DNA of 36,743 bases from a virus: positions 1-36,743 of the IMG/VR virus record IMGVR_UViG_3300019776_000234. One strand, 5' to 3'. Below the pieces are notes generated by a model, which saw only the letters and a list, made by a program, of their open reading frames with translations, was not told the DNA's origin and ran no database searches. Shown in pieces: positions 9,103 through 28,109 of the stretch. Each line of letters begins with the position of its first letter. The first letter of the stretch is position 1. A program made the translations under genes and the position numbers.

Positions 9103-9107
9103 TTTTT

Positions 9108-11156
9108 ATGAGCAAAACCACCGATTTACAGAGCTTGCATGACCAAGCCCTAACCGAGTTCGACGCAATCCAATCCGCAGTACGCGAGGAGCGGCAACAA
9201 TGCGTCGAGGACAGGCGGTTTTGCTCAATCAGAGGAGCGCAGTGGGAAGGGCCGCTGCAAATGCAGTTTGAGAACAAGCCGAAATTCGAGGTTAATAAAG
9301 TTCAGCCGGCCGTTAATAGGATCATAACTGAGTACCGTAACAACCGGATCAGCGTGGCGTTTGTTTCCAAGGATGGCTCTGAATACGATGAACTTGCAGA
9401 TGCTTGCGCTGGATTGTATCGGGCTGACACAATAGACAGCGGAGCGGACGAGGCGCATGACAACGCTTTCGAGGAGGCAGTGACGGGCGGATTCGGGGCG
9501 TATCGTTTACGGACTGAGTACGAAGAGCCTGAGGACGAGGACGACGACCGGCAACGCATTAGGGTTGAGCCGATATTTGACGCTGACACTAGCGTGTTTT
9601 TCGACCTTCAAGCGAAGCGGCAGGACAAAGCGGATGCGAAATCATGCTTCGTGCTATATAGTATGACTCCAGAGGCTTACGAGGAACGATGGAACGAGTC
9701 GCCATCGACGTTCCCAAAGGAATTAGGCGAGCGGTTCTTCGATTGGACTACACCGGATGTTGTGTACATCGCCGAGTATTACAAGATCGAGATGACCAGT
9801 GAGACGATTCACTTTTTCCAAGGTCTCGATCCGGAAGGTGAGCTTGAGAAGGTGCGTGAAGATGAATTAGAGGAACGACTGCCGATGCTTCAAGCGTCTG
9901 GATTCCGTGAGGTGAAGACTAAGAAGGTGAAGCGGCAGCGTTGCCGGAAGTACATATTGAGCGGAAATCGGATCTTGGAAGACTGTGGATACATCGCTGG
10001 AAAACATATTCCTATCGTCCCTGTTTATGGGAAACGCTGGTTTGTTGACAACATCGAGCGTTGCATGGGTCACGTCCGGTTGGCTAAAGACGCGCAACGG
10101 CTCAAAAATATGCAACTCTCTAAGCTGGGAGAGATTAGCGCACTGTCTAGCGTTGAAAAGCCATTGTTCACTCCTGAGCAAATGGCAGGGCATCAGCTGA
10201 TGTGGAGTGAGGATAACATCAAGAATTACCCTTATCTGCTGGTCAATCCGATGACCGATATGAATGGCAATCAAGCCGCAGGTGGCCCGATTGGATTCAC
10301 GCGCTCGCCTCAGATTCCTCCGGCAATGGCAGCTCTGTTGCAAATCACTGAGCAAGATATGCAGGATCTTCTCGGAGCGAACAAGCAGGGCGAGCAGATG
10401 GTGTCGAATATCTCAGGCAAAGCGGTTGAGATGATTCAACAGCGGATCGACCTCGGAACAGCGATCTATATTCAGAATTACTCCAAGGCAGTGAAACGTG
10501 AGGGCGAGATTTGGCTGAGCATGGCGCAAGAGGTTTATGGTGAACCAGGGCGCAAAATGAAGGTTGTGACCGAGCAAGAAGCGACCGATCAGATCGTTCT
10601 GATGAAACCAACAGTAAACGACGAAGGCCAGATCGAGTACGAAAACGACATGAGTGAAGCTACGTTTGATGTGGCCGTGACAGTTGGGCCAAGCAGCGAT
10701 TCTAAGCGGCAATCCACTGTACGCGCATTGACCGGACTGCTTGCAATAACATCAGATCCAGAGACTCAGCAGGTGCTACAGGCAATGACGCTGATGAACA
10801 TGGAAGGTGAAGGGATTAGTGATGTGCGCGAATATTTCCGGCGCAAGATGGTTCAGATGGGTGTTGTTAAACCTACTGAGGAAGAACAAGCAGCAATGCA
10901 GGCCGCAGGGCAGAATCAGCAACCAACGCCTCAGGATCAGTATATGCTCGCGGCGGCTGAACAAGCTCAAGCAGATGCACAGAAGAAGCGGGCGGACACG
11001 ATTGGATCTCTTGCCAAAGCGCAGCAGTCCGAGGCAGAGACACAAAAGGTACACGCCGAGACGCTCAAGATATTGAACGAACAAGGCACTCAGGAGATTC
11101 CGCAGAGTATTGAGCAAATGCCAGAGCTTAGGCAGATGTTGAGTCAGGTTCAGTAG
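9108..11156 (+). CDS. P22-like portal protein
   Basis: 682 residues, close to P22 gp1 (725). It forms the dodecameric DNA channel at the tail vertex. Recognisable P22-portal features: N-terminal region with FSIRGAQWEGPLQ and VQPAVNRIITEYRNNRI, an acidic EEPEDEDDDRQRIRVEPI loop, VVYIAEYYKIE, and a stem/crown segment ANKQGEQMVSNISGKAVEMIQQRID. The C-terminal 100 residues are Gln/Ala-rich and helical (QAAMQAAGQNQQPTPQDQ onward), the counterpart of the long P22 portal barrel. The gene follows the large terminase by 5 bases and is closed by a terminator hairpin at 11191-11218. Confidence 0.92.
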   Translation: MSKTTDLQSLHDQALTEFDAIQSAVREERQQCVEDRRFCSIRGAQWEGPLQMQFENKPKFEVNKVQPAVNRIITEYRNNRISVAFVSKDGSEYDELADACAGLYRADTIDSGADEAHDNAFEEAVTGGFGAYRLRTEYEEPEDEDDDRQRIRVEPIFDADTSVFFDLQAKRQDKADAKSCFVLYSMTPEAYEERWNESPSTFPKELGERFFDWTTPDVVYIAEYYKIEMTSETIHFFQGLDPEGELEKVREDELEERLPMLQASGFREVKTKKVKRQRCRKYILSGNRILEDCGYIAGKHIPIVPVYGKRWFVDNIERCMGHVRLAKDAQRLKNMQLSKLGEISALSSVEKPLFTPEQMAGHQLMWSEDNIKNYPYLLVNPMTDMNGNQAAGGPIGFTRSPQIPPAMAALLQITEQDMQDLLGANKQGEQMVSNISGKAVEMIQQRIDLGTAIYIQNYSKAVKREGEIWLSMAQEVYGEPGRKMKVVTEQEATDQIVLMKPTVNDEGQIEYENDMSEATFDVAVTVGPSSDSKRQSTVRALTGLLAITSDPETQQVLQAMTLMNMEGEGISDVREYFRRKMVQMGVVKPTEEEQAAMQAAGQNQQPTPQDQYMLAAAEQAQADAQKKRADTIGSLAKAQQSEAETQKVHAETLKILNEQGTQEIPQSIEQMPELRQMLSQVQ

Positions 11157-13877: not shown

Positions 13878-13969
13878 TTCTCTGTAACTCAGTGGTTAGA
13901 GCCGTCGTCTAACAAGCGGCGAAGATGCGGGTATACGCATGTGCGTGAGTTCGATCCTCACCAGAGAAG
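13878..13969 (+). tRNA. tRNA with anticodon AAC and long variable arm
   Basis: A cloverleaf of 92 nt. Acceptor TTCTCTG/CAGAGAA pairs perfectly and the discriminator is G. D arm ACTC-AGTGGTTA-GAGC has an A-C mismatch at 10-25. Anticodon stem GTCGT/GCGGC (two wobbles) closes the 7-base loop CTAACAA, so the anticodon is AAC at 13911-13913 (reads GUU, valine). T arm GTGAG-TTCGATC-CTCAC is canonical. The variable region is 24 nt and contains its own 5-bp stem ATGCG/CGCAT, as in class II tRNAs (Ser, Leu, Tyr). CCA is not encoded. Anticodon and body disagree, so the charging amino acid is uncertain; a decayed tRNA-like element is the alternative. Confidence 0.75.
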
Positions 13970-19896: not shown

Positions 19897-20895
19897 ATGA
19901 GTGACGCACTTAAGCCGAAATACAATCTAACGGTAGGAAGCGCAGTCGCTCCAACGACCAGTGCGCTTGTCACATATGAGCTTGCCGAAAACGGCTACAC
20001 GGGGCGTTTATACCTCAACAAAGAGGATGATACGGTTGTCGATGTCGCCAAGGTTCAGCTCACTGGAGACGTTACAGGCACGACTGCTGCGCCAACGTCA
20101 AACACGGATGGCGGGACGATTGTTGCCTCTGTTGAGAAGCTCCTTGGCCGAGCATTGTCAACGACGGCTCCGGCCTCTCTTGAGACTCTTGTTTATTCGA
20201 CAACGGACGGCAAGTGGACTCCTGCGGCTCCTACGTTCAGCAATTTCCCGTTGAGCAATCAAGCTGCAACAACGGATCAAATCTTGGTTTACACAACCGA
20301 GACGGACAGTGTGAATCGGTGGGTTCCGACAAGCGTTCCTTTCATTAAGGAAATTGTGAAGTTCGACGGTTCGTTGGCAAATTGCACGATCAAGACCGGA
20401 ACGTATTCACGATCTGGAACGACGATCACCGTTTCTATTTCATCGCACGGATTTGAGGTTGGTAATCTGCTGTATCTCAACTGTACGACTGGAACAGGGA
20501 CAGATGAGGAATACGAAGTTACAGGGGTTACAGATGCCAACACTTTCACCGTAACAGATACAGCTTCCGGAGCGACTAGTGGCACCTGTCAGTTCCTTGT
20601 TTGTGATGACTCCTACACCACTGGGATGCGGATCATCTACGGATCAAAAACAACTGCTGCTTCTTATTACTGCAACTACAAAAAGACCTACGCGAATGGG
20701 GCTTCTCCAGTTGTTACGCTTTCAACGATTGAATCTGGAGGAGGATTTACGAACTGCACCATCATTTACATGGATTACAATTCGTACCTTGGAAGAGCGG
20801 TTGCGCGTACTGCTAATGCTTTTGGGTTTAGTGGTCAAAACTACTCCGGAACGGCTCAGGAAACGGGCGTAAACTCGATGGTCTGCATTTTTTAA
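19897..20895 (+). CDS. Tail fibre-like structural protein
   Basis: 332 residues. The N-terminal LKPKYNLTVGSAVAPTTSALVTYELAENGYTGRLYLNKEDDTVVDVAKVQLTGDVTG matches the start of phage tail fibres (the motif of the form PTTSxLVxxELAxNxxxGxLYxKxxDGTVV). The rest is Thr/Ser-rich beta structure, including a SISSHGFEVGNLLYLNCTTGTGTDEEYEVTGVTDANTFTVTDT block typical of virion beta domains. Likely host-contacting. It begins 2 bases after the chaperone-like gene and ends 3 bases before gp10. Confidence 0.72.
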   Translation: MSDALKPKYNLTVGSAVAPTTSALVTYELAENGYTGRLYLNKEDDTVVDVAKVQLTGDVTGTTAAPTSNTDGGTIVASVEKLLGRALSTTAPASLETLVYSTTDGKWTPAAPTFSNFPLSNQAATTDQILVYTTETDSVNRWVPTSVPFIKEIVKFDGSLANCTIKTGTYSRSGTTITVSISSHGFEVGNLLYLNCTTGTGTDEEYEVTGVTDANTFTVTDTASGATSGTCQFLVCDDSYTTGMRIIYGSKTTAASYYCNYKKTYANGASPVVTLSTIESGGGFTNCTIIYMDYNSYLGRAVARTANAFGFSGQNYSGTAQETGVNSMVCIF

Positions 20896-20898
20896 CGG

Positions 20899-22299
20899 AT
20901 GCAAATCCCGATACTTAACGGTGTATACACAGATAGAGCTTCTAATGTACGAACTTCGTACCCTAGAAACCTTGTGCCTGTACCGAAATCGTCGGGCGTC
21001 TCGGACGGGTTTTTGCGTCCGGCTGATGGAATTATCGGGGTGGCTTCTGGCACTGGGATTGATCGTGGTGGGATTGAGTGGAATGGAGTGCTTTACCGAG
21101 TCTTGGGAACAAAGCTCTGTTCAATCTCTGAAGGCTTTACGATCACTGAGCTTGGAGACGTTGGTGGGACTGGTCAGGTAACGCTGGACTACTCGTTTGA
21201 TTACCTCGCGATTGCTTCAAGCGAGAAATTCTTTCTCTATCGTCCATCGACCGGACTTCAGCAGGTCACTGATGAGGATTTAGGGCCAGTTGTAGACTTC
21301 TGCTGGGTGGATGGATACTTTATGACAACGGATGGAGAGTTTTTGATCGTCACTGAGTTGACTGATCCGTTCTCCGTTAATCCTCTCAAATACGGCTCCT
21401 CTGAAGCTGATCCTGACCCGATTCTTTCACTTGTTAAGTTGCGAAACGAGGTTTACGCGATCAACAGACACACGATTGAGGTTTTCAACAACGTAGGAGG
21501 ATCTGGTTTTCCATTTCAGCGCGTGGAAGGTGGACAGGTTCAAAAGGGATGTATCGGAACCCATGCGGCCTGCTTGTTTCTAGACGGTATCGCGTTCATG
21601 GGAGGTGCTAGAAACGAAGCTCCTGCAATTTACATCACTGCCGGAGCAACTTCACAGAAGATTAGTTCGCGTGAAGTTGACTTGGTTCTGTTGCGTTACA
21701 CGGAAGCGCAACTTGCAGACACGCTGATCGAATCGCGGACGTATCAAGGACTATCGCAGCTGTACATTCATCTCCCTGGTGTCACATACGTCTACGATGC
21801 GGCGGCAAGTGCTGCGATGGGTCAACCAATCTGGTTCACGTTATCCAGCTCTCTAAACGAGACGGCTTATCGCGGACGAAACATGATCTGGTGTTACAAC
21901 AAATGGATTGTAGGAGATCCGTTTCAAGATCGGATTGGGTATCTGACTCAGACGGTTTCAAGCCATTGGGGCGAAAAGGTCGGGTGGGAATGCACTACGC
22001 CAATCATGTACAACAACTCAAAGGGGGTCATTCTGCACGATCTTGAACTTGTTTCGCTGACTGGTCGCGCCGCACTCGGGGACGATCCTACGATCTGGAC
22101 TTCGTGGAGCTTGGACGGTGAGGTTTGGTCGCAAGAGTGGACTTGTCGCGCTGGTGTTCAAGGCAATCGAGCCAAGCGTATCATATGGTTTCGGCAAGGG
22201 ACGATGCAGACCACACGGATTCAGCGTTTCCGAGGAACATCTGACGCGCATATCTCAATTTTGAGACTGGAGGCTACGGTTGAGCCGTTGTACGTTTAA
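20899..22299 (+). CDS. P22 gp10-like tail protein (packaged DNA stabilisation)
   Basis: 466 residues (P22 gp10 is 472). MQIPILNGVYTDRASNVRTSYPRNLVPVPKSSGVSDGFLRPADGI is a strong gp10-family start, and GGIEWNGVLYRVLGTKLCSI with the later SFDYLAIASSEKFFLY propeller-like repeats agree. In P22 gp10 forms the hexameric ring under gp4 that holds the tail needle and keeps DNA inside. It overlaps the needle-like gene by one base (TAATG). Confidence 0.9.
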   Translation: MQIPILNGVYTDRASNVRTSYPRNLVPVPKSSGVSDGFLRPADGIIGVASGTGIDRGGIEWNGVLYRVLGTKLCSISEGFTITELGDVGGTGQVTLDYSFDYLAIASSEKFFLYRPSTGLQQVTDEDLGPVVDFCWVDGYFMTTDGEFLIVTELTDPFSVNPLKYGSSEADPDPILSLVKLRNEVYAINRHTIEVFNNVGGSGFPFQRVEGGQVQKGCIGTHAACLFLDGIAFMGGARNEAPAIYITAGATSQKISSREVDLVLLRYTEAQLADTLIESRTYQGLSQLYIHLPGVTYVYDAAASAAMGQPIWFTLSSSLNETAYRGRNMIWCYNKWIVGDPFQDRIGYLTQTVSSHWGEKVGWECTTPIMYNNSKGVILHDLELVSLTGRAALGDDPTIWTSWSLDGEVWSQEWTCRAGVQGNRAKRIIWFRQGTMQTTRIQRFRGTSDAHISILRLEATVEPLYV

Positions 22300-22646
22300 T
22301 GTCAACGACTTCACTCACACGCGCAGATTTGCAGAAGTTTCTCCCAGATTTGAGAAGCGTTCGCGTTTTTGAGGATCTGATAGCAAATACGCAATCGTCG
22401 CAAAACTACGGGCCGGAGATTGCAGCACTTCAATCTGGACTAGCATCAACAAACGCCGAGGTGGATGCGTTGCAAGTATCGCTCAATCAGACCAACGCTG
22501 ATGTTCAGTCGCTTTCAACATCAGTCGGAGATACAAATACAACAGTCGCAGCACTTCAAGCGTCTCTCACGTTGGTTTCAAGCGACCTGCAAACACTCAC
22601 CACATACGTCTACGCTAATCTCCCGCCTGACTACGGCACTTACTGA
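22299..22646 (+). CDS. Coiled-coil tail needle-like protein (gp26 position)
   Basis: 115 residues. The N-terminus (TRADLQKFLPDLRSVRVFEDLI) is of a type seen in podophage tail proteins, where it docks to the tail hub. Residues 38-105 are a heptad coiled coil (IAALQSGLASTNAEVDALQVSLNQTNADVQSLSTSVGDTNTTVAALQASL). The end is LPPDYGTY, matching the end of the head-binding protein at 28106-28411. P22 has the trimeric needle gp26 in this position (233 residues), so this may be a half-length needle or a short fibre. Confidence 0.65.
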   Translation: MSTTSLTRADLQKFLPDLRSVRVFEDLIANTQSSQNYGPEIAALQSGLASTNAEVDALQVSLNQTNADVQSLSTSVGDTNTTVAALQASLTLVSSDLQTLTTYVYANLPPDYGTY

Positions 22647-22653
22647 TTGAGTT

Positions 22654-22681
22654 TTGGCGACGAATTAGTTTTACTTATACT
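22654..22681 (+). promoter_or_regulatory. Weak putative promoter before the cupin-SET gene
   Basis: TTGGCG (22654-22659), 16-bp spacer, TATACT (22676-22681). If used, the transcript would begin near 22688, after the GTG at 22682, and the first usable start would be ATG 22730. It would allow the gene to be expressed apart from the virion genes. Confidence 0.35.
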
Positions 22682-23527
22682 GTGACTGAACTTTGCCCAG
22701 TTGAATCACATGATCTAGTTGAGATCAATATGAACGCTTCACTTGATGAAGTGGAATTGGCAGTGCTTGATCTTCCGCAGGTTGAATGCTCAATGGTTCA
22801 TCGTTTTGGCAATGGCATCTACATCAGAGAGCTAACAATGCCAAAGGGAACGTTGATTGTTGGTCATAATCACAGGCACAATCACACAAACTTCATCCTA
22901 AAGGGAAAGGCTATCATGCACACGGAGGGGAATCCTCCTATGACGCTTGAAGCTCCTATGGTTTTCGAGTGGGGGCCGGGACGTAAGGTCATTTACAACT
23001 TAGAGGAAACGGTTTGGCAGAATGTTCACGCAATCAAATCCCGTGATCTGGATGAGATTGAAGAGTTTCTGTACGATAAATCAGACGGGTCACGGGCTTA
23101 CGTTCAAGGCATGCACGATGCAGAGACGGCTTATCGCAAAGCTGACTTAGAGGATTTTGAGTGTCTTGATTTATCTGATAGATTTTACCCTCTTGGAGAC
23201 ATTTGTGACTACCCATTTGGAATGGAGTCTTGCGTCCAAATTCGTTCAAGTCGGATTCACGGCAAGGGATGCTTTATCGGAGCCGGAGTTCCTGCCATGT
23301 CGATTATTGCTCCAATACGATTAAGCGGAAAATGGACGGAGGCGGCTAGGTTTGTAAACCATTCCTGCCGTCCTAATTGCTTTTTTGTTAAGTCTGATTC
23401 TGGTGATGTTGTGCTTATGTCATTCCGTGACATAAGAAACCCAATCGCAGGGCAATCATGCGAGGAATTGACCATTGATTACAAGCAAGCAACAAAAGTC
23501 TTAAATATGAAGGAGGACTCAATATGA
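22682..23527 (+). CDS. Cupin-SET domain fusion, putative protein methyltransferase
   Basis: 281 residues from GTG 22682; ATG 22730 (265 residues) is an alternative. Residues about 40-120 form a cupin of the sort found in phage genomes (VGHNHRHNHTNFILKGKAIMH, four His at 62-68 as metal ligands, then DLDEIEEFL). Residues about 186-272 carry all three SET-domain signatures: SSRIHGKGCF (GxG, SAM pocket, 194-196), RFVNHSCRPN (226-232, pseudoknot) and EELTIDY with the catalytic-position Tyr267. SET enzymes methylate lysine in proteins; the substrate here is unknown. The gene sits between tail needle and ejection genes, its TGA overlaps the next ATG, and a strong AAGGAGG for that next gene lies in its end. 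Confidence 0.8.
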   Translation: MTELCPVESHDLVEINMNASLDEVELAVLDLPQVECSMVHRFGNGIYIRELTMPKGTLIVGHNHRHNHTNFILKGKAIMHTEGNPPMTLEAPMVFEWGPGRKVIYNLEETVWQNVHAIKSRDLDEIEEFLYDKSDGSRAYVQGMHDAETAYRKADLEDFECLDLSDRFYPLGDICDYPFGMESCVQIRSSRIHGKGCFIGAGVPAMSIIAPIRLSGKWTEAARFVNHSCRPNCFFVKSDSGDVVLMSFRDIRNPIAGQSCEELTIDYKQATKVLNMKEDSI

Positions 23528-24261
23528 GCGCATGGGTGGCTGGAGGTTTAGCGTTAGCGTCTGTGGCAGCTGGTGCGTATGCCGCAAATAAAAGAGCGTC
23601 TGCTGCAAGAAGGGCAGCGGGACAGCAGATTGATATGTATAACAGGGGGGTTTCTGAGCAAGAAGCAAAACTTGCCGATATTAAAGACCTACTTTCTCCT
23701 TACACTGATCTTGGCAAGAAGGCTTTAGAAAGTCAGGGCAATCTGATTGGGCTTGGCACTCCAGAACAACAACGTAAAGCGATTTCCAACATTGAGCAGG
23801 GACCGCAATTCCAAGCGATGCAACAGCAGGGTGAAAACTCGCTTTTGCAGAACGCTTCTGCAACCGGAGGACTTCGGGGAGGAAACATTGAATCGGCATT
23901 GGCGCAGTTTCGTCCGAGCCTGCTTTCGTCGCTAATTCAACAGCAGTTTAGCCAACTCGGGGGACTGAGCGGGCAGGGATTGCAAGCGTCTAACGCATTG
24001 AGTGGGTTCACTCAGAACACTGGGAACAACAAGTCTCAGCTATTCGGACAAATCGGAGCGGCTCAGGCAGGGGCAACTAACGCGCAAGGTGCAGCAAATG
24101 CGGCTCCGTGGCAGATGGCTAGTGACTTGGCTGGAAGTTATTCTGGGATGGTTGCTGGGAATTATCTAAAGGGTGGAAGTTCATTCTCCACTCCGCAATA
24201 CGGTGGAACGCAAAACGTGCAAGGCGGCACAATGAACAACGGGATCTTTACTTCGACCTAA
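23524..24261 (+). CDS. Ejection protein, gp7-like DNA transfer protein
   Basis: 245 residues. The N-terminus is hydrophobic and Ala-rich (MSAWVAGGLALASVAAGAYAANKRASAARRAAGQQIDMYN), followed by a Gln-rich helical middle (QGPQFQAMQQQGENSLLQNASATGGLRGGNIESALAQF) and a Gly/Asn/Gln-rich end, the usual make-up of P22 gp7/gp14-type injection proteins. These travel into the cell with the DNA and build a conduit across the envelope. It has the clearest Shine-Dalgarno of the arm (AGGAGG, 7 bases before ATG 23524), overlapping the end of the cupin-SET gene. Confidence 0.8.
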   Translation: MSAWVAGGLALASVAAGAYAANKRASAARRAAGQQIDMYNRGVSEQEAKLADIKDLLSPYTDLGKKALESQGNLIGLGTPEQQRKAISNIEQGPQFQAMQQQGENSLLQNASATGGLRGGNIESALAQFRPSLLSSLIQQQFSQLGGLSGQGLQASNALSGFTQNTGNNKSQLFGQIGAAQAGATNAQGAANAAPWQMASDLAGSYSGMVAGNYLKGGSSFSTPQYGGTQNVQGGTMNNGIFTST

Positions 24262-24264
24262 TTT

Positions 24265-25638
24265 ATGCCAGATCCGATCAACTACTTAGCAGGAATGCAA
24301 GATCCTGCATCCGGCAATTTCCTGCGAGCGTTCCAAGGAGGTATCCAGATGGGCTTGCAAGCTCCGTCTGCGCTTGAGCGTGAGGCCCAACAAGAGGCGA
24401 TCAACCTTTCGCGTGTTCAGCAGGATTCGTCTCGATTACAACAGAATATCCTTCAGCAGAAACTTGCAGAAGATCAAAGGGTGGAAGAGTTCAAGCAAAA
24501 GGCCGCTGATAATTATTGGAGTACGTTGCAAGACGTAAATGCGACTCCGGAGCAAATCACATCATCTAAGCAGGGGCTTTTTTACGCTTTTCCAGAGCTT
24601 GCAAAGCAAAATGAAGCGATGCAGAAAAACGCCACTGAACTCCAGAAAGGATTTGCTAGTAGCATGGCAAAGAGACTTGTGGTTGCAATGGATTCTAAAG
24701 ATCCAAACGTTATTGATACAACGTTTAACGAACTGGAGACGGCAGCAAAAAGCAAACCAGAGCTTGCGATGAATCTTCAAGGTCTCAAAACGATAAGAGA
24801 TCTTCACGCAAAGAGTACGGAGTCAGCTTACGGAATGGCTCGATCTGTTGTTGCTGATTCTGATCCGAAGTTTCTGTCTGAATATTACGATTCACGCAAA
24901 AAACAGAAAGAAGCTGAAGGTGTTGTAGATTCCGAGTTGCCCCTAAAGGAAAAAAATCAATTTATCGAGGATCAGCGAAAAACATGGGAAAAGGCATTTG
25001 CGCCTTACAATATCCGGCAAGAGAACTTCTCTATCATCCAGAACGCTAATCCAGATAAAATCGGAGACACCGCTAGGATTAAAGCGTTTGTTAAGATGAT
25101 AACTCCAAACGAATCTGTGATGGAGGGCGATGTTCGTTCTATTTCAAATCCTGCTGATACTGTTGGCGGATTCTTGGCTAACATTCAGCGCAAATTTGAT
25201 TCAACTGGGCTACTTGAACAGACAGATAGAGATGCGATCGAGAGAGAGTCTGAATCTCTATTTAACCGATCAAGGGGCAAGGTTGAGTACACTCGGAAAA
25301 GCATGACTCCGCTACTAAAGCGGAACAACGTTGATCCTGCTGACGTGTTTATTTTTGACATGGGAGAAAACGCAAAAAAGAAAGAGCAACCAACAAAGCC
25401 AAATCTCACTCCATACGGAACAACTTCCGCAACACTTCCTTCTCGTTCAAGTGCGATGGCGATTAGTGCGCCACCGGCAAAAGGAGGAAACTTGACTCAA
25501 TATCAAATTGCAGCTGCGAAACGACAAGCAGATAGAGAAGCCGGATTGCCAGTTGATAACACTCCGGTGGACTTAGGTGAACCAAAGTTCCTTGAGTTAA
25601 TTTCTCCGTCTGGTGTTCAGTTCAAACGGGCCAAATAA
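24265..25638 (+). CDS. Ejection protein, gp20-like
   Basis: 457 residues. It opens MPDPINYLAGMQDPASGNFLRAFQGGIQMGLQ, followed by a long Gln/Glu-rich helical region (residues 30-180) of the kind seen in the second P22-type ejection protein. The middle and end are charged and helical without catalytic motifs. Its place between the gp7-like and gp16-like genes, with gaps of 2-3 bases, supports the assignment; similarity to P22 gp20 itself is only architectural. Confidence 0.72.
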   Translation: MPDPINYLAGMQDPASGNFLRAFQGGIQMGLQAPSALEREAQQEAINLSRVQQDSSRLQQNILQQKLAEDQRVEEFKQKAADNYWSTLQDVNATPEQITSSKQGLFYAFPELAKQNEAMQKNATELQKGFASSMAKRLVVAMDSKDPNVIDTTFNELETAAKSKPELAMNLQGLKTIRDLHAKSTESAYGMARSVVADSDPKFLSEYYDSRKKQKEAEGVVDSELPLKEKNQFIEDQRKTWEKAFAPYNIRQENFSIIQNANPDKIGDTARIKAFVKMITPNESVMEGDVRSISNPADTVGGFLANIQRKFDSTGLLEQTDRDAIERESESLFNRSRGKVEYTRKSMTPLLKRNNVDPADVFIFDMGENAKKKEQPTKPNLTPYGTTSATLPSRSSAMAISAPPAKGGNLTQYQIAAAKRQADREAGLPVDNTPVDLGEPKFLELISPSGVQFKRAK

Positions 25639-25640
25639 CG

Positions 25641-28109
25641 ATGCCTACTTATTCCGTATCTGTTGATGGTGCTGAATATTCGTTCGATGCTCCGGACGAT
25701 AAAGCGGCAGGCTTGTACGCTGATGACATTTATAAATCGGTAACGGCTGGAACTGCAAAGCCGCTTGAACAAGCTGCTGCTGCGCCGGAAATTGGCGGAA
25801 TGTTTGACGAGTTCGGCGGCTCAGTTGGTAACGAGTGGATTGACCGCTTGAAAGGTCTTCCTGCTGCGATGAAAGAGGCTTTTACTGGCGAACAACGTCA
25901 GACGGAAGCGACTCGCACAACTCCGGATTATCGCGCTGCTGGCGGGATGCCTGAGATGGCGAGCGTCACAATGCCTTCACTCAAAGCTGCTGCTGGAACG
26001 CTCGCATCTGGGCCGGAGGAGACTGCAAGGATCATCAAATCGAAATTCCCAAACGTCCAAGTATTCAACGACGAAAAAGGGAACTTCTTTCTGAAGTCTG
26101 CGGTAGATGGAAAAACCTACGCGATTCAACCAGGATTCAACGCTGGCGACATTTTGCGCGGCATTGGCACTGTTGGACAGTACATGATCGGTGGCGAGGT
26201 CGCAGGGGCCGCAAAGGGCCTTAAAGCTGGATTACAAGGTGCAAAAACACTTGAGAAAGCTGGGATGCTTGAACGCGCGTTGGGATCTGCAATAGGGCAA
26301 ACTGGCATTGAGGCTTCACAAGCTGCGACTGGAGGGACTTTCGATACTGCTACAATTCCGGAAGCGGCTGCTGCTGATATTGGAATCGGGCTTATAGGCA
26401 AAGGTGCTTCTGCGCTGAACAAATCGCTTAAATCTCCTACCATTTCCGGTGCACTTGAATCTGGCGGATTCGGCGTTGCTGGCGGTGAAGGTGCATCTAT
26501 TCCAGCAAGCGAAGTCGCTGGTGCTGCTGAACGAATGGCAAAAGGTGAATCTGTCACTGCTGCCGCTCCAATTTCGCAAGAGCAACTCATCACTCTAGTG
26601 AAGATCGCAGGCGTTAAAGGTAACACGCAGGCAAAAGAGCGTCTTGCATCGTTGCTTGATGTGGATCCAACGCTATTGGATTACGCCAAAGAATTGGGGC
26701 TTGATTTGCCAGTTGATGTGCTTTCAAGGAATCGTCAATTGAAGGGCGCGATTGGCCTTGGCAGGTCTCAAGCGGCATCTGGTGAAGCGGCTGGATGGCA
26801 ACAGGCGGTTCAAGATTCGATGGCTAAGTTTGACGATATTGTTGAAAGCCTTGGAGTGAAAGATGACGTAGCAGGCATTTCAGACAAAACGCGAAAAACG
26901 CTAACTGATGCCATTCAAGATTTAGAAGGACAAGCAAAGCCGCTTTACTCAGAGATTGAACAAGTTGTAACTCCAGAGTCAGGAGTTAGGGCAAGCAAAC
27001 TGAGATCTGTTCTTGAAGAGTCACTCGCCAAAAAAGGAGGAAGGGTTGAGCGATTAACTCCAGTTGAGCGTGATTTGCTTAAAGAATTAGACGCCGGGAA
27101 TGTCACTTGGGATTTCATCAAAGGTGAAAAGATGGATCTTGGTGAATCCGCTTTTAATCCATCATCGAAGTTTTCCGCTGTTGTTAAGGCGCAGAAAGCA
27201 AAGTTGTATGATGCAATGAAGGAGGATCTCCGCGCGGCGGTTGCTGATACTGGAGACGCTGAACTTTTGGCTAAATACGATTTAGCGCAATCACTCCACG
27301 CTAAAAAGATGGAGTTCAAAGATAAGATCCTTCAAGGGTTTGGAAAGACCGATGAGGGGACTCTGATTGGCGCGATGAATAAAGTGGTTCGCGGTTTGAG
27401 GTCCGGAGACACTAAAGATTTGGTTCGTTTCAATATGGTTGTTCCAAAAGAGCAACAAGAGGAAGCGTTGCTTACTGCGATTTTCGACGCCACAAAAGCA
27501 AAGTCCGGAGAAGGTGTTAGCCAATTTGGACACGCTGAATATGTGAAGTTGTTCAGTGATATTGCGAAACGGCCAAACGTAGCGGCGAAAGTATCTGAGG
27601 TTGTCGGGAAGGAGAAGTTTGCAACGATGCAGAAGATGTACGCATTGTCGAAAGCGATTCAAGAGTCCCGCGCAAACGTTAAAGGAACAGGGGCTTCTTT
27701 GCAGTGGAATAAGGCACTTGAGCCAACTGGGATCGTTGAAAAGTCAATAGATCAACTCAGCGCAGCAAATATCGGAAAAGCGGTTGGTGGCGCGGCTGGA
27801 TTGGCGGTTGGAGGGCCAGGTGGAGCATTGGTCGGAGGAACGCTTGGGCATTTCATAGGACAATCCTTAGCCAAAGCACCGCCCGATAAACTCGGCCTTG
27901 TAAACGCAATGTTCGGATCTCCAGAGTTCAAGAATCTGGCAATCAAAGCCGCTACTCAGCCAAGGGTATCCAATACTGACGTAAACAAACTGATATTCTC
28001 TCCAGCCTTTAGAAAGTTCGCTAAAGAAACCGGAATGGACATGAGCAAAAAAGCACTTACTGCATGGGTCACTGACTCGTTACAACCGAAAACCAAATCT
28101 GACAAATGA
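25641..28109 (+). CDS. Ejection protein, gp16-like, with glycine-zipper segment
   Basis: 822 residues, the largest ejection protein. It opens with a small beta domain (TYSVSVDGAEYSFDAPDDKAAGLYADDIYKSV) used in such proteins as a virion-docking segment, then long Ala-rich helices with amphipathic stretches (KGLKAGLQGAKTLEKAGMLERALG). Near the end is GKAVGGAAGLAVGGPGGALVGGTLG, a Gly-zipper able to enter membranes. No lytic transglycosylase motif is apparent. Probably crosses or lines the inner membrane during DNA entry. Its TGA overlaps the next ATG (ATGA). Confidence 0.75.
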   Translation: MPTYSVSVDGAEYSFDAPDDKAAGLYADDIYKSVTAGTAKPLEQAAAAPEIGGMFDEFGGSVGNEWIDRLKGLPAAMKEAFTGEQRQTEATRTTPDYRAAGGMPEMASVTMPSLKAAAGTLASGPEETARIIKSKFPNVQVFNDEKGNFFLKSAVDGKTYAIQPGFNAGDILRGIGTVGQYMIGGEVAGAAKGLKAGLQGAKTLEKAGMLERALGSAIGQTGIEASQAATGGTFDTATIPEAAAADIGIGLIGKGASALNKSLKSPTISGALESGGFGVAGGEGASIPASEVAGAAERMAKGESVTAAAPISQEQLITLVKIAGVKGNTQAKERLASLLDVDPTLLDYAKELGLDLPVDVLSRNRQLKGAIGLGRSQAASGEAAGWQQAVQDSMAKFDDIVESLGVKDDVAGISDKTRKTLTDAIQDLEGQAKPLYSEIEQVVTPESGVRASKLRSVLEESLAKKGGRVERLTPVERDLLKELDAGNVTWDFIKGEKMDLGESAFNPSSKFSAVVKAQKAKLYDAMKEDLRAAVADTGDAELLAKYDLAQSLHAKKMEFKDKILQGFGKTDEGTLIGAMNKVVRGLRSGDTKDLVRFNMVVPKEQQEEALLTAIFDATKAKSGEGVSQFGHAEYVKLFSDIAKRPNVAAKVSEVVGKEKFATMQKMYALSKAIQESRANVKGTGASLQWNKALEPTGIVEKSIDQLSAANIGKAVGGAAGLAVGGPGGALVGGTLGHFIGQSLAKAPPDKLGLVNAMFGSPEFKNLAIKAATQPRVSNTDVNKLIFSPAFRKFAKETGMDMSKKALTAWVTDSLQPKTKSDK

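Follow-up and report, generated by a model that had tools for sequence, protein, structure and literature searches.

The SET lysine methyltransferases of the MLL/KMT2 type are the best sequence and structure matches of the phage protein described here, which has in common with them the SET fold and the GxG, xRFxNHSCxPN and E-LTxDY signatures. The phage form differs from them in being without some 40 residues (the YxG strand and SET-I) and without a post-SET, in being fused to a cupin, and in its location in a phage ejection cassette. vSET of the chlorella virus PBCV-1 (PDB 1n3j) is, like the phage form, a compact viral SET (sequence match, E 1.5e-4), and one GenBank relative of the phage protein, MW202744, is named after it. 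However, vSET is a stand-alone protein from a virus of eukaryotes, whereas the phage SET has a cupin partner and an ejection gene for a neighbour. The cupins of PHROG 12032 and 24280 (“short tail fiber” and “tail fiber adhesin”) are homologous to the cupin half and occupy the same position before gene 7 without a SET domain; their tail-fibre names, used in PHROGs and GenBank, have no support from fold or gene position. TM1459-type manganese cupins share the cupin fold and, in the protein analysed here, a four-histidine ligand set, but these ligands are not conserved in the phage family. P22 gp14 (DUF2824) and T7 gp13 are found in the same place before the first ejection gene, and neither has a detectable sequence relation to cupin or SET; DUF2824 was unmatched in the Pfam scan of our protein. 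An hhalign comparison of P22 gp14, based on two sequences only, gave no match to GNAT acetyltransferases.

No description of a phage cupin-SET protein was found in the literature searched, and the papers on Rhodoferax phage P26218 and on PBR31 make no mention of a cupin or a SET domain. The PhiSH19 paper yielded an apparent “SET domain” match that was rejected, the domain there being of the Ig-like I-set type. Both folds, SET and cupin, are known, and the protein is already included, unannotated, in a PHROG family.

The DNA analysed (the window, 36,743 nucleotides, IMG/VR record IMGVR_UViG_3300019776_000234) comes from a P22-like podophage. The genes around the fusion are as follows.

20899..22299, + strand: head closure Hc3 / P22 gp10-like gene (PF11134, 1.5e-37; phrog_578)
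22299..22646, + strand: gene of a short protein, coiled-coil-like by weak matches, that in gene order corresponds to the tail needle gene 26 of P22
22682..23527, + strand: cupin-SET fusion gene, 281 aa, GTG start, TGA stop at 23527 (ORF, Pfam/PHROG, AF2 model)
23510..23516, + strand: AAGGAGG, Shine-Dalgarno of the gp7-like gene, inside the cupin-SET ORF (sequence)
23524..24261, + strand: gp7-like DNA ejection protein gene (PF25688, E = 6.6e-8; phrog_598), with the codon of residue 3 (Ala) at 23530-23532
24265..25638, + strand: next ejection-cassette gene, gp20 position (from order only; without a convincing family match)
25641..28109, + strand: next ejection-cassette gene, gp16 position (from order; phrog_6704, function unassigned)

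As can be seen, the fusion gene takes the position of gene 14 in the P22 order 10-26-14-7-20-16, and that of gene 13 in T7. Its stop codon and the start codon of the gp7-like gene share the ATGA at 23524-23527, a 4-nt overlap. The GTG at 22682 has no clear Shine-Dalgarno sequence; the ATG at 22730 (M17) is an alternative start, since residues 1-11 are disordered in the AF2 model and the homologue at locus L011 begins at the position of residue 17. The initial annotation had also allowed the gene a possible promoter of its own, which we could not uphold: matches like that at 22654-22681 occur at chance frequency (3 found, 2.1 expected; one 9/12 match), and this one would place the transcription start at or after the start codon. 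Elsewhere in the window, a tRNA-Val (anticodon AAC) lies at 13878-13969, downstream of the coat gene, and the protein encoded at 19897-20895 has a weak match to the phage endosialidase beta-barrel domain (E 2e-4), possibly a receptor-binding part.

The fusion protein itself is composed of the following elements.

22775..23080, + strand: cupin (double-stranded beta-helix), residues ~32-133 (VIA-align Z 10-11.6 to cupins; 21-23% identity to TM1459)
22865..22885, + strand: cupin motif H62-N-H64-R-H66-N-H68 (sequence, ligand survey)
23027-23029, + strand: fourth ligand candidate, H116 (sequence, ligand survey)
23084..23206, + strand: helical linker, residues 135-175 (DSSP of the AF2 model)
23207..23503, + strand: mini-SET domain, residues ~176-274 (Pfam PF00856; MLL1 structural match)
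23261..23269, + strand: GxG motif G194-K-G196, SAM-site signature (94/94 homologues)
23357..23377, + strand: NHSCRPN motif, residues 226-232 (N 94/94, H 93/94, P 94/94)
23462..23482, + strand: EELTIDY motif, ending at the catalytic-position Tyr267 (E262, T264 and Y267 94/94)

The ORF and the positions of its GxG, NHSCRPN and EELTIDY motifs were confirmed exactly as first read from the DNA, and profile search together with structure prediction recovered both a SET and a cupin domain. Pfam SET (PF00856) matches at E = 2.5e-8 with 34.7 bits, against a curated cut-off of 22.4, and the same profile matches 51 of 52 aligned family members at E ≤ 0.01; the Pfam Cupin_2 match of the window protein (0.0097) is below cut-off, and an NCBIfam search gave no match. 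In the AF2 model, which was built from the 52 aligned proteins (mean pLDDT 89, pTM 0.84), the SET half superimposes on the MLL1 SET domain with Z 10.3 and an rmsd of 2.1 Å over 82 residues, at 34% identity.

The hallmark motifs, described at the outset as a complete set, are indeed present and invariant or nearly so in 94 homologues. G194, G196, N226, P231, E262, T264 and Y267 do not vary among the 94 aligned fusions, H227 is kept in 93 and D266 in 90; the invariance of ExTxDY is partly built in, as this was a pattern used in the viral scan, while GxG and NHxxPN were not scan patterns. Fold and signatures persist in sequences down to 23% identity to the window protein, with the proline of NHxxPN lost in some marine SET-bearing members found via the cupin. 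The likening of the domain to vSET in compactness is fair by length; more telling is that the stretch from the second glycine of GxG to the asparagine of NH is 30 residues in 94/94 fusions, about half of what we counted by eye in two host bacterial SET proteins. When aligned with MLL1, the family profile falls into two blocks, GxG on the one side and NHSCxPN to DY on the other, and the ~40 MLL1 residues between them, the YxG strand and SET-I, have no phage counterpart. In their place, the phage family has a conserved motif, approximately PARxxGxRTxxGR(Y/F)xNH. SET-I is variable across the SET superfamily, and the absence of the YxG strand and SET-I marks a SET variant, not exclusion from the superfamily. 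The YxG strand carries one of the usual SET active-site tyrosines, so that catalysis may be altered or lost and activity cannot be assumed. We consider it probable that the predicted SET half is an active methyltransferase.

PHROG 34170, which has no functional annotation, matches the fusion over its full length (8.9e-49 over residues 20-272). Full-length fusions were retrieved by tblastn from eight GenBank phage records, five genomes after merging of duplicates, with Rhodoferax phage P26218 and Pseudoalteromonas phage PH1 among the isolates, and the cupin alone from about 44 further GenBank phage records. The fusion and the gp7-like protein are gp30 and gp29 in P26218, and gp49 and gp50 in PH1. 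An alignment-based scan retrieved at least 332 relatives of the fusion from IMG/VR and 11 loci in bacterial assemblies; a single-sequence IMG/VR scan with the window protein had found no relatives, because this protein is divergent. Cupin relatives also occur on plasmid records from Acinetobacter and Stenotrophomonas (H107-H114), non-mobilizable and 39-56 kb in size, which are possibly phage-plasmids.

A survey of the two domains in related phages revealed that the mini-SET is almost exclusively attached to this cupin. In a SET-anchored viral scan, 71 of 72 new loci were fusions, the exception lying at a contig end, and the only free-standing mini-SETs were two cellular cases: in Paraburkholderia ferrariae (L099, 5668-7115) cupin and SET are two separate overlapping genes, and a prophage-like locus of a Comamonadaceae bacterium (L101, 5782-6348) has a SET-only gene. 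Conversely, no other domain was fused to this cupin among 80 cupin-anchored loci (three of them, L144, L146 and L120, cut by contig ends): the C-terminal addition was SET or nothing. On a tree of 109 cupins, in which one SET-less row (L144) ends at a contig end, SET has appeared or disappeared on at least five or six occasions.

These data bear on a reading in which neither domain is catalytic and the fusion is an assembly factor, the cupin and SET together serving as a chaperone or scaffold that binds and loads the gp7 N-terminus, with SET as a peptide-binding module. Such a role would suit the gene position, which is occupied in P22 by gene 14, annotated “head morphogenesis”, and in T7 by gene 13, a “probable scaffold” according to Pfam; it would also suit the persistence of the cupin while SET comes and goes, and the missing active-site YxG segment. 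On the other hand, the GxG, NH and Tyr signatures hardly ever vary even between highly divergent members, a degree of conservation that binding alone would not require, and we regard this reading as rather doubtful.

The link between the fusion and gp7 is close. The fusion of SET to a cupin next to a gp7-like ejection gene is borne out, the two genes overlap, and the arrangement is kept in hundreds of phages. A gp7-like gene lies directly 3′ of the fusion in 81 of the 92 fusion loci with room for it, mostly with an overlap of 4 or 13 nt. When 78 loci were collected by a gp7-anchored scan, the upstream gene was the cupin alone in 37, cupin-SET in 5 and something else in 36, the last group including GNAT acetyltransferases and a helical family with a DDxxDGD motif. 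The slot before gp7 so exchanges small enzyme-like proteins, since relatives hold the cupin alone, a GNAT with a hydroxylase, or neither: among close coat-protein relatives of the window, MW202867 carries just a cupin, 21% identical to that of the window, Pseudomonas phage PfAn1 (L259, 3817-4881) has a GNAT plus an aspartyl/asparaginyl beta-hydroxylase (PF05118, 2.4e-17) directly before gp7, and MW202475 has neither.

Two observations were made on the slot in passing. The DDxxDGD family consists of helical proteins of ~150 aa encoded directly upstream of gp7 at eight loci (L277, L281, L290, L295, L304, L322, L327 and L336); the motif is invariant, Pfam gave no match, and the AF2 model (pLDDT 78) has weak, non-significant Foldseek hits to prenyl diphosphate synthases (E ~0.5). 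In Phage zth2-2 (L003), a GNAT acetyltransferase gene (9105-9593) lies just downstream of the cupin-SET fusion; the gene that immediately follows the fusion encodes a short protein that by profile does not resemble gp7, yet keeps an MSA start.

We noticed post hoc, not as a prior prediction, that the beginning of gp7 differs between phages with SET and phages with the cupin alone. The protein starts M-S-small in SET-bearing phages, versus M-S/A/T-bulky in cupin-only phages: residue 3 is Gly, Ala or Ser at 95 of 97 SET-bearing loci versus 6 of 64 cupin-only loci, of which 58 have a bulky residue. After near copies were removed, a small residue 3 was counted in 61/63 versus 3/33 (Fisher 3.6e-19, a value that ignores shared descent). 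In the gp7-anchored census, 5/5 cupin-SET loci start MSG, versus mostly MSW, MAW, MTF or MTW at cupin-only loci. The consensus of the rest of the first 16 gp7 residues is nearly equal in the two groups. A constraint from the gene overlap was considered as the sole cause and rejected: with the 10-nt overlap class left out, in which the stop codon forces T at the second base of codon 3, the pattern stays (95/97 versus 6/48), and within the 13-nt class residue 3 is small at 32/32 SET-bearing and 0/21 cupin-only loci. At L126, a SET-bearing locus amid cupin-only neighbours on the tree, gp7 begins MSGVATAI versus MSVVAAAV in the neighbours. The tree offers only three well-supported independent contrasts, of which on average 2.3 go the same way and 0 the opposite way; the sign test is not significant. 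The main doubt about the co-variation is shared descent, as the 3′ end of SET and the 5′ end of gp7 are adjacent and may travel together. With that reservation, the co-variation of residue 3 points to the N-terminal region of gp7 as a putative target of SET.

Taking these results together, we propose, at a probability of roughly 40%, that the fusion is an accessory methyltransferase of the DNA-ejection cassette that acts on the gp7 N-terminal region. The chances are about even, in our estimate, that the target lies within the phage's own ejection set at all.

The nature of the acceptor was approached through a search for conserved lysines. The initial annotation suggested methyl-lysine in gp7; as a conserved function, this did not hold up. 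The gp7 proteins of three related phages (L050, L051 and L053; ~250-259 aa) have zero lysines despite intact SET motifs, and no gp7 column is Lys in more than 39 of 92 proteins from SET-bearing phages. Judged from these alignments, a shared lysine target in gp7 is ruled out, and the N-terminal amine stays compatible. If gp7 is the target, this argues for an acceptor amine other than lysine. Similarly, no constant Lys column was found in the head closure protein Hc3 of SET-bearing phages, and no lysine column of the neighbour proteins tested exceeded ~65-73%, with poor coverage of gp20 and gp16 (41 and 15 SET-bearing sequences, respectively).

The lack of an invariant lysine in gp7 and in the head closure protein can be held in favour of a host-directed enzyme, that is, a protein lysine methyltransferase that would act late in infection on a conserved host protein, for example a nucleoid or translation protein, and lie next to gp7 only for late expression. 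Protein lysine methylation is the activity for which SET proteins are known elsewhere, which also suits such a role. A Ralstonia SET gene divergent from an HU-like gene provides an example of a possible bacterial substrate (PMC5390034), and we counted this pair on the same side. Under a host target, however, neither the strict gp7 linkage across very divergent phages nor the co-variation of residue 3 would be expected, and three Burkholderiales with the phage-type SET (L340, L341 and L342) also have 2-3 full-length chromosomal SET proteins. We consider a host target unlikely.

Methylation of a lysine in another virion protein (gp20- or gp16-like, coat or portal), or of the fusion itself, with gp7 merely a neighbour, appears less likely still. 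The gp16-like proteins are lysine rich, and the linker residue K133 is conserved as Lys in 90 of 94 fusions, but this residue is absent from PH1 and the lysine columns of the tested neighbours stay at or below the level given above.

The cupin half was first described as a histidine cluster. H62, H64, H68 and H116 are real in the window, but all four are histidines in only one of 94 fusions, that of the window itself: positions 62/64/68/116 read HQHY in 51, HHHY in 14, HHHF in 14 and HHHH in 1. Of the cupin-only relatives near the same gp7 type, 42 were examined; all 42 have H64, and position 116 is His in 32. Among the fusions, R49, G61, G75, G100, K102 and W112 vary less than the ligands do. 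A conserved metal enzyme is therefore not what the fusions suggest, as far as aligned residues can tell, and metal binding by the window's own cupin is possible. The idea, put forward at the outset, of a metal-dependent hydroxylase or demethylase activity of the cupin, working against SET or complementing it, could draw on the resemblance of the window's HHHH to the four-His set of the manganese cupin TM1459 (a near structural match) and on H64 of the cupin-only relatives, but is highly improbable given the Tyr or Phe fourth ligand of most fusions, ligand sets that differ among relatives (HQHY in 51, HHHY/HHHF in 28), and the fact that the known protein demethylases of cupin fold are 2-oxoglutarate enzymes with another type of ligand.

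To return to an accessory methyltransferase of the ejection cassette, the following course of events can be envisaged. The cupin half, recognised as such by its fold, is the domain usually resident at the P22 gene-14 position; it probably binds or guides the gp7-like product of the gene that overlaps its own. The mini-SET would then most likely methylate an amino group on the gp7 N-terminal region during synthesis. Since residue 3 co-varies with SET and gp7 can be lysine-free, the best candidate acceptor would be the alpha-amine of Ser2 after removal of Met1, rather than a lysine; plant Rubisco methyltransferases are SET proteins able to methylate an N-terminal alpha-amine. We put forward the gp7 N-terminal amine as a tentative target, somewhat unlikely to be the right one. 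In its modified form, gp7 would next be taken up into the virion and from there ejected into the cell envelope. According to its record, P22 gp7 is processed at its N-terminus, which means that the N-terminus of gp7 matters biologically.

In its most general form, our proposal is that the place before the first ejection gene serves podophages as a “protein-finishing” slot with exchangeable content, and that in this lineage it contains a cupin-guided mini-SET which methylates the N-terminal amine of the ejection protein as it is made; we offer this as a conjecture that is, on balance, doubtful. SET proteins have been studied as writers of chromatin marks, and here a stripped-down SET has a constant location amid the ejection genes of hundreds of phages. 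If our proposal is true, the fusion would represent a bacteriophage protein methyltransferase whose substrate is a virion protein that is ejected, and at the same time a SET enzyme that works without SET-I. One could then understand the presence of cupins, of GNAT acetyltransferases and, in a single phage, of an aspartyl hydroxylase in one spot, and it would mean that covalent modification is a means by which phages finish their ejection machinery.
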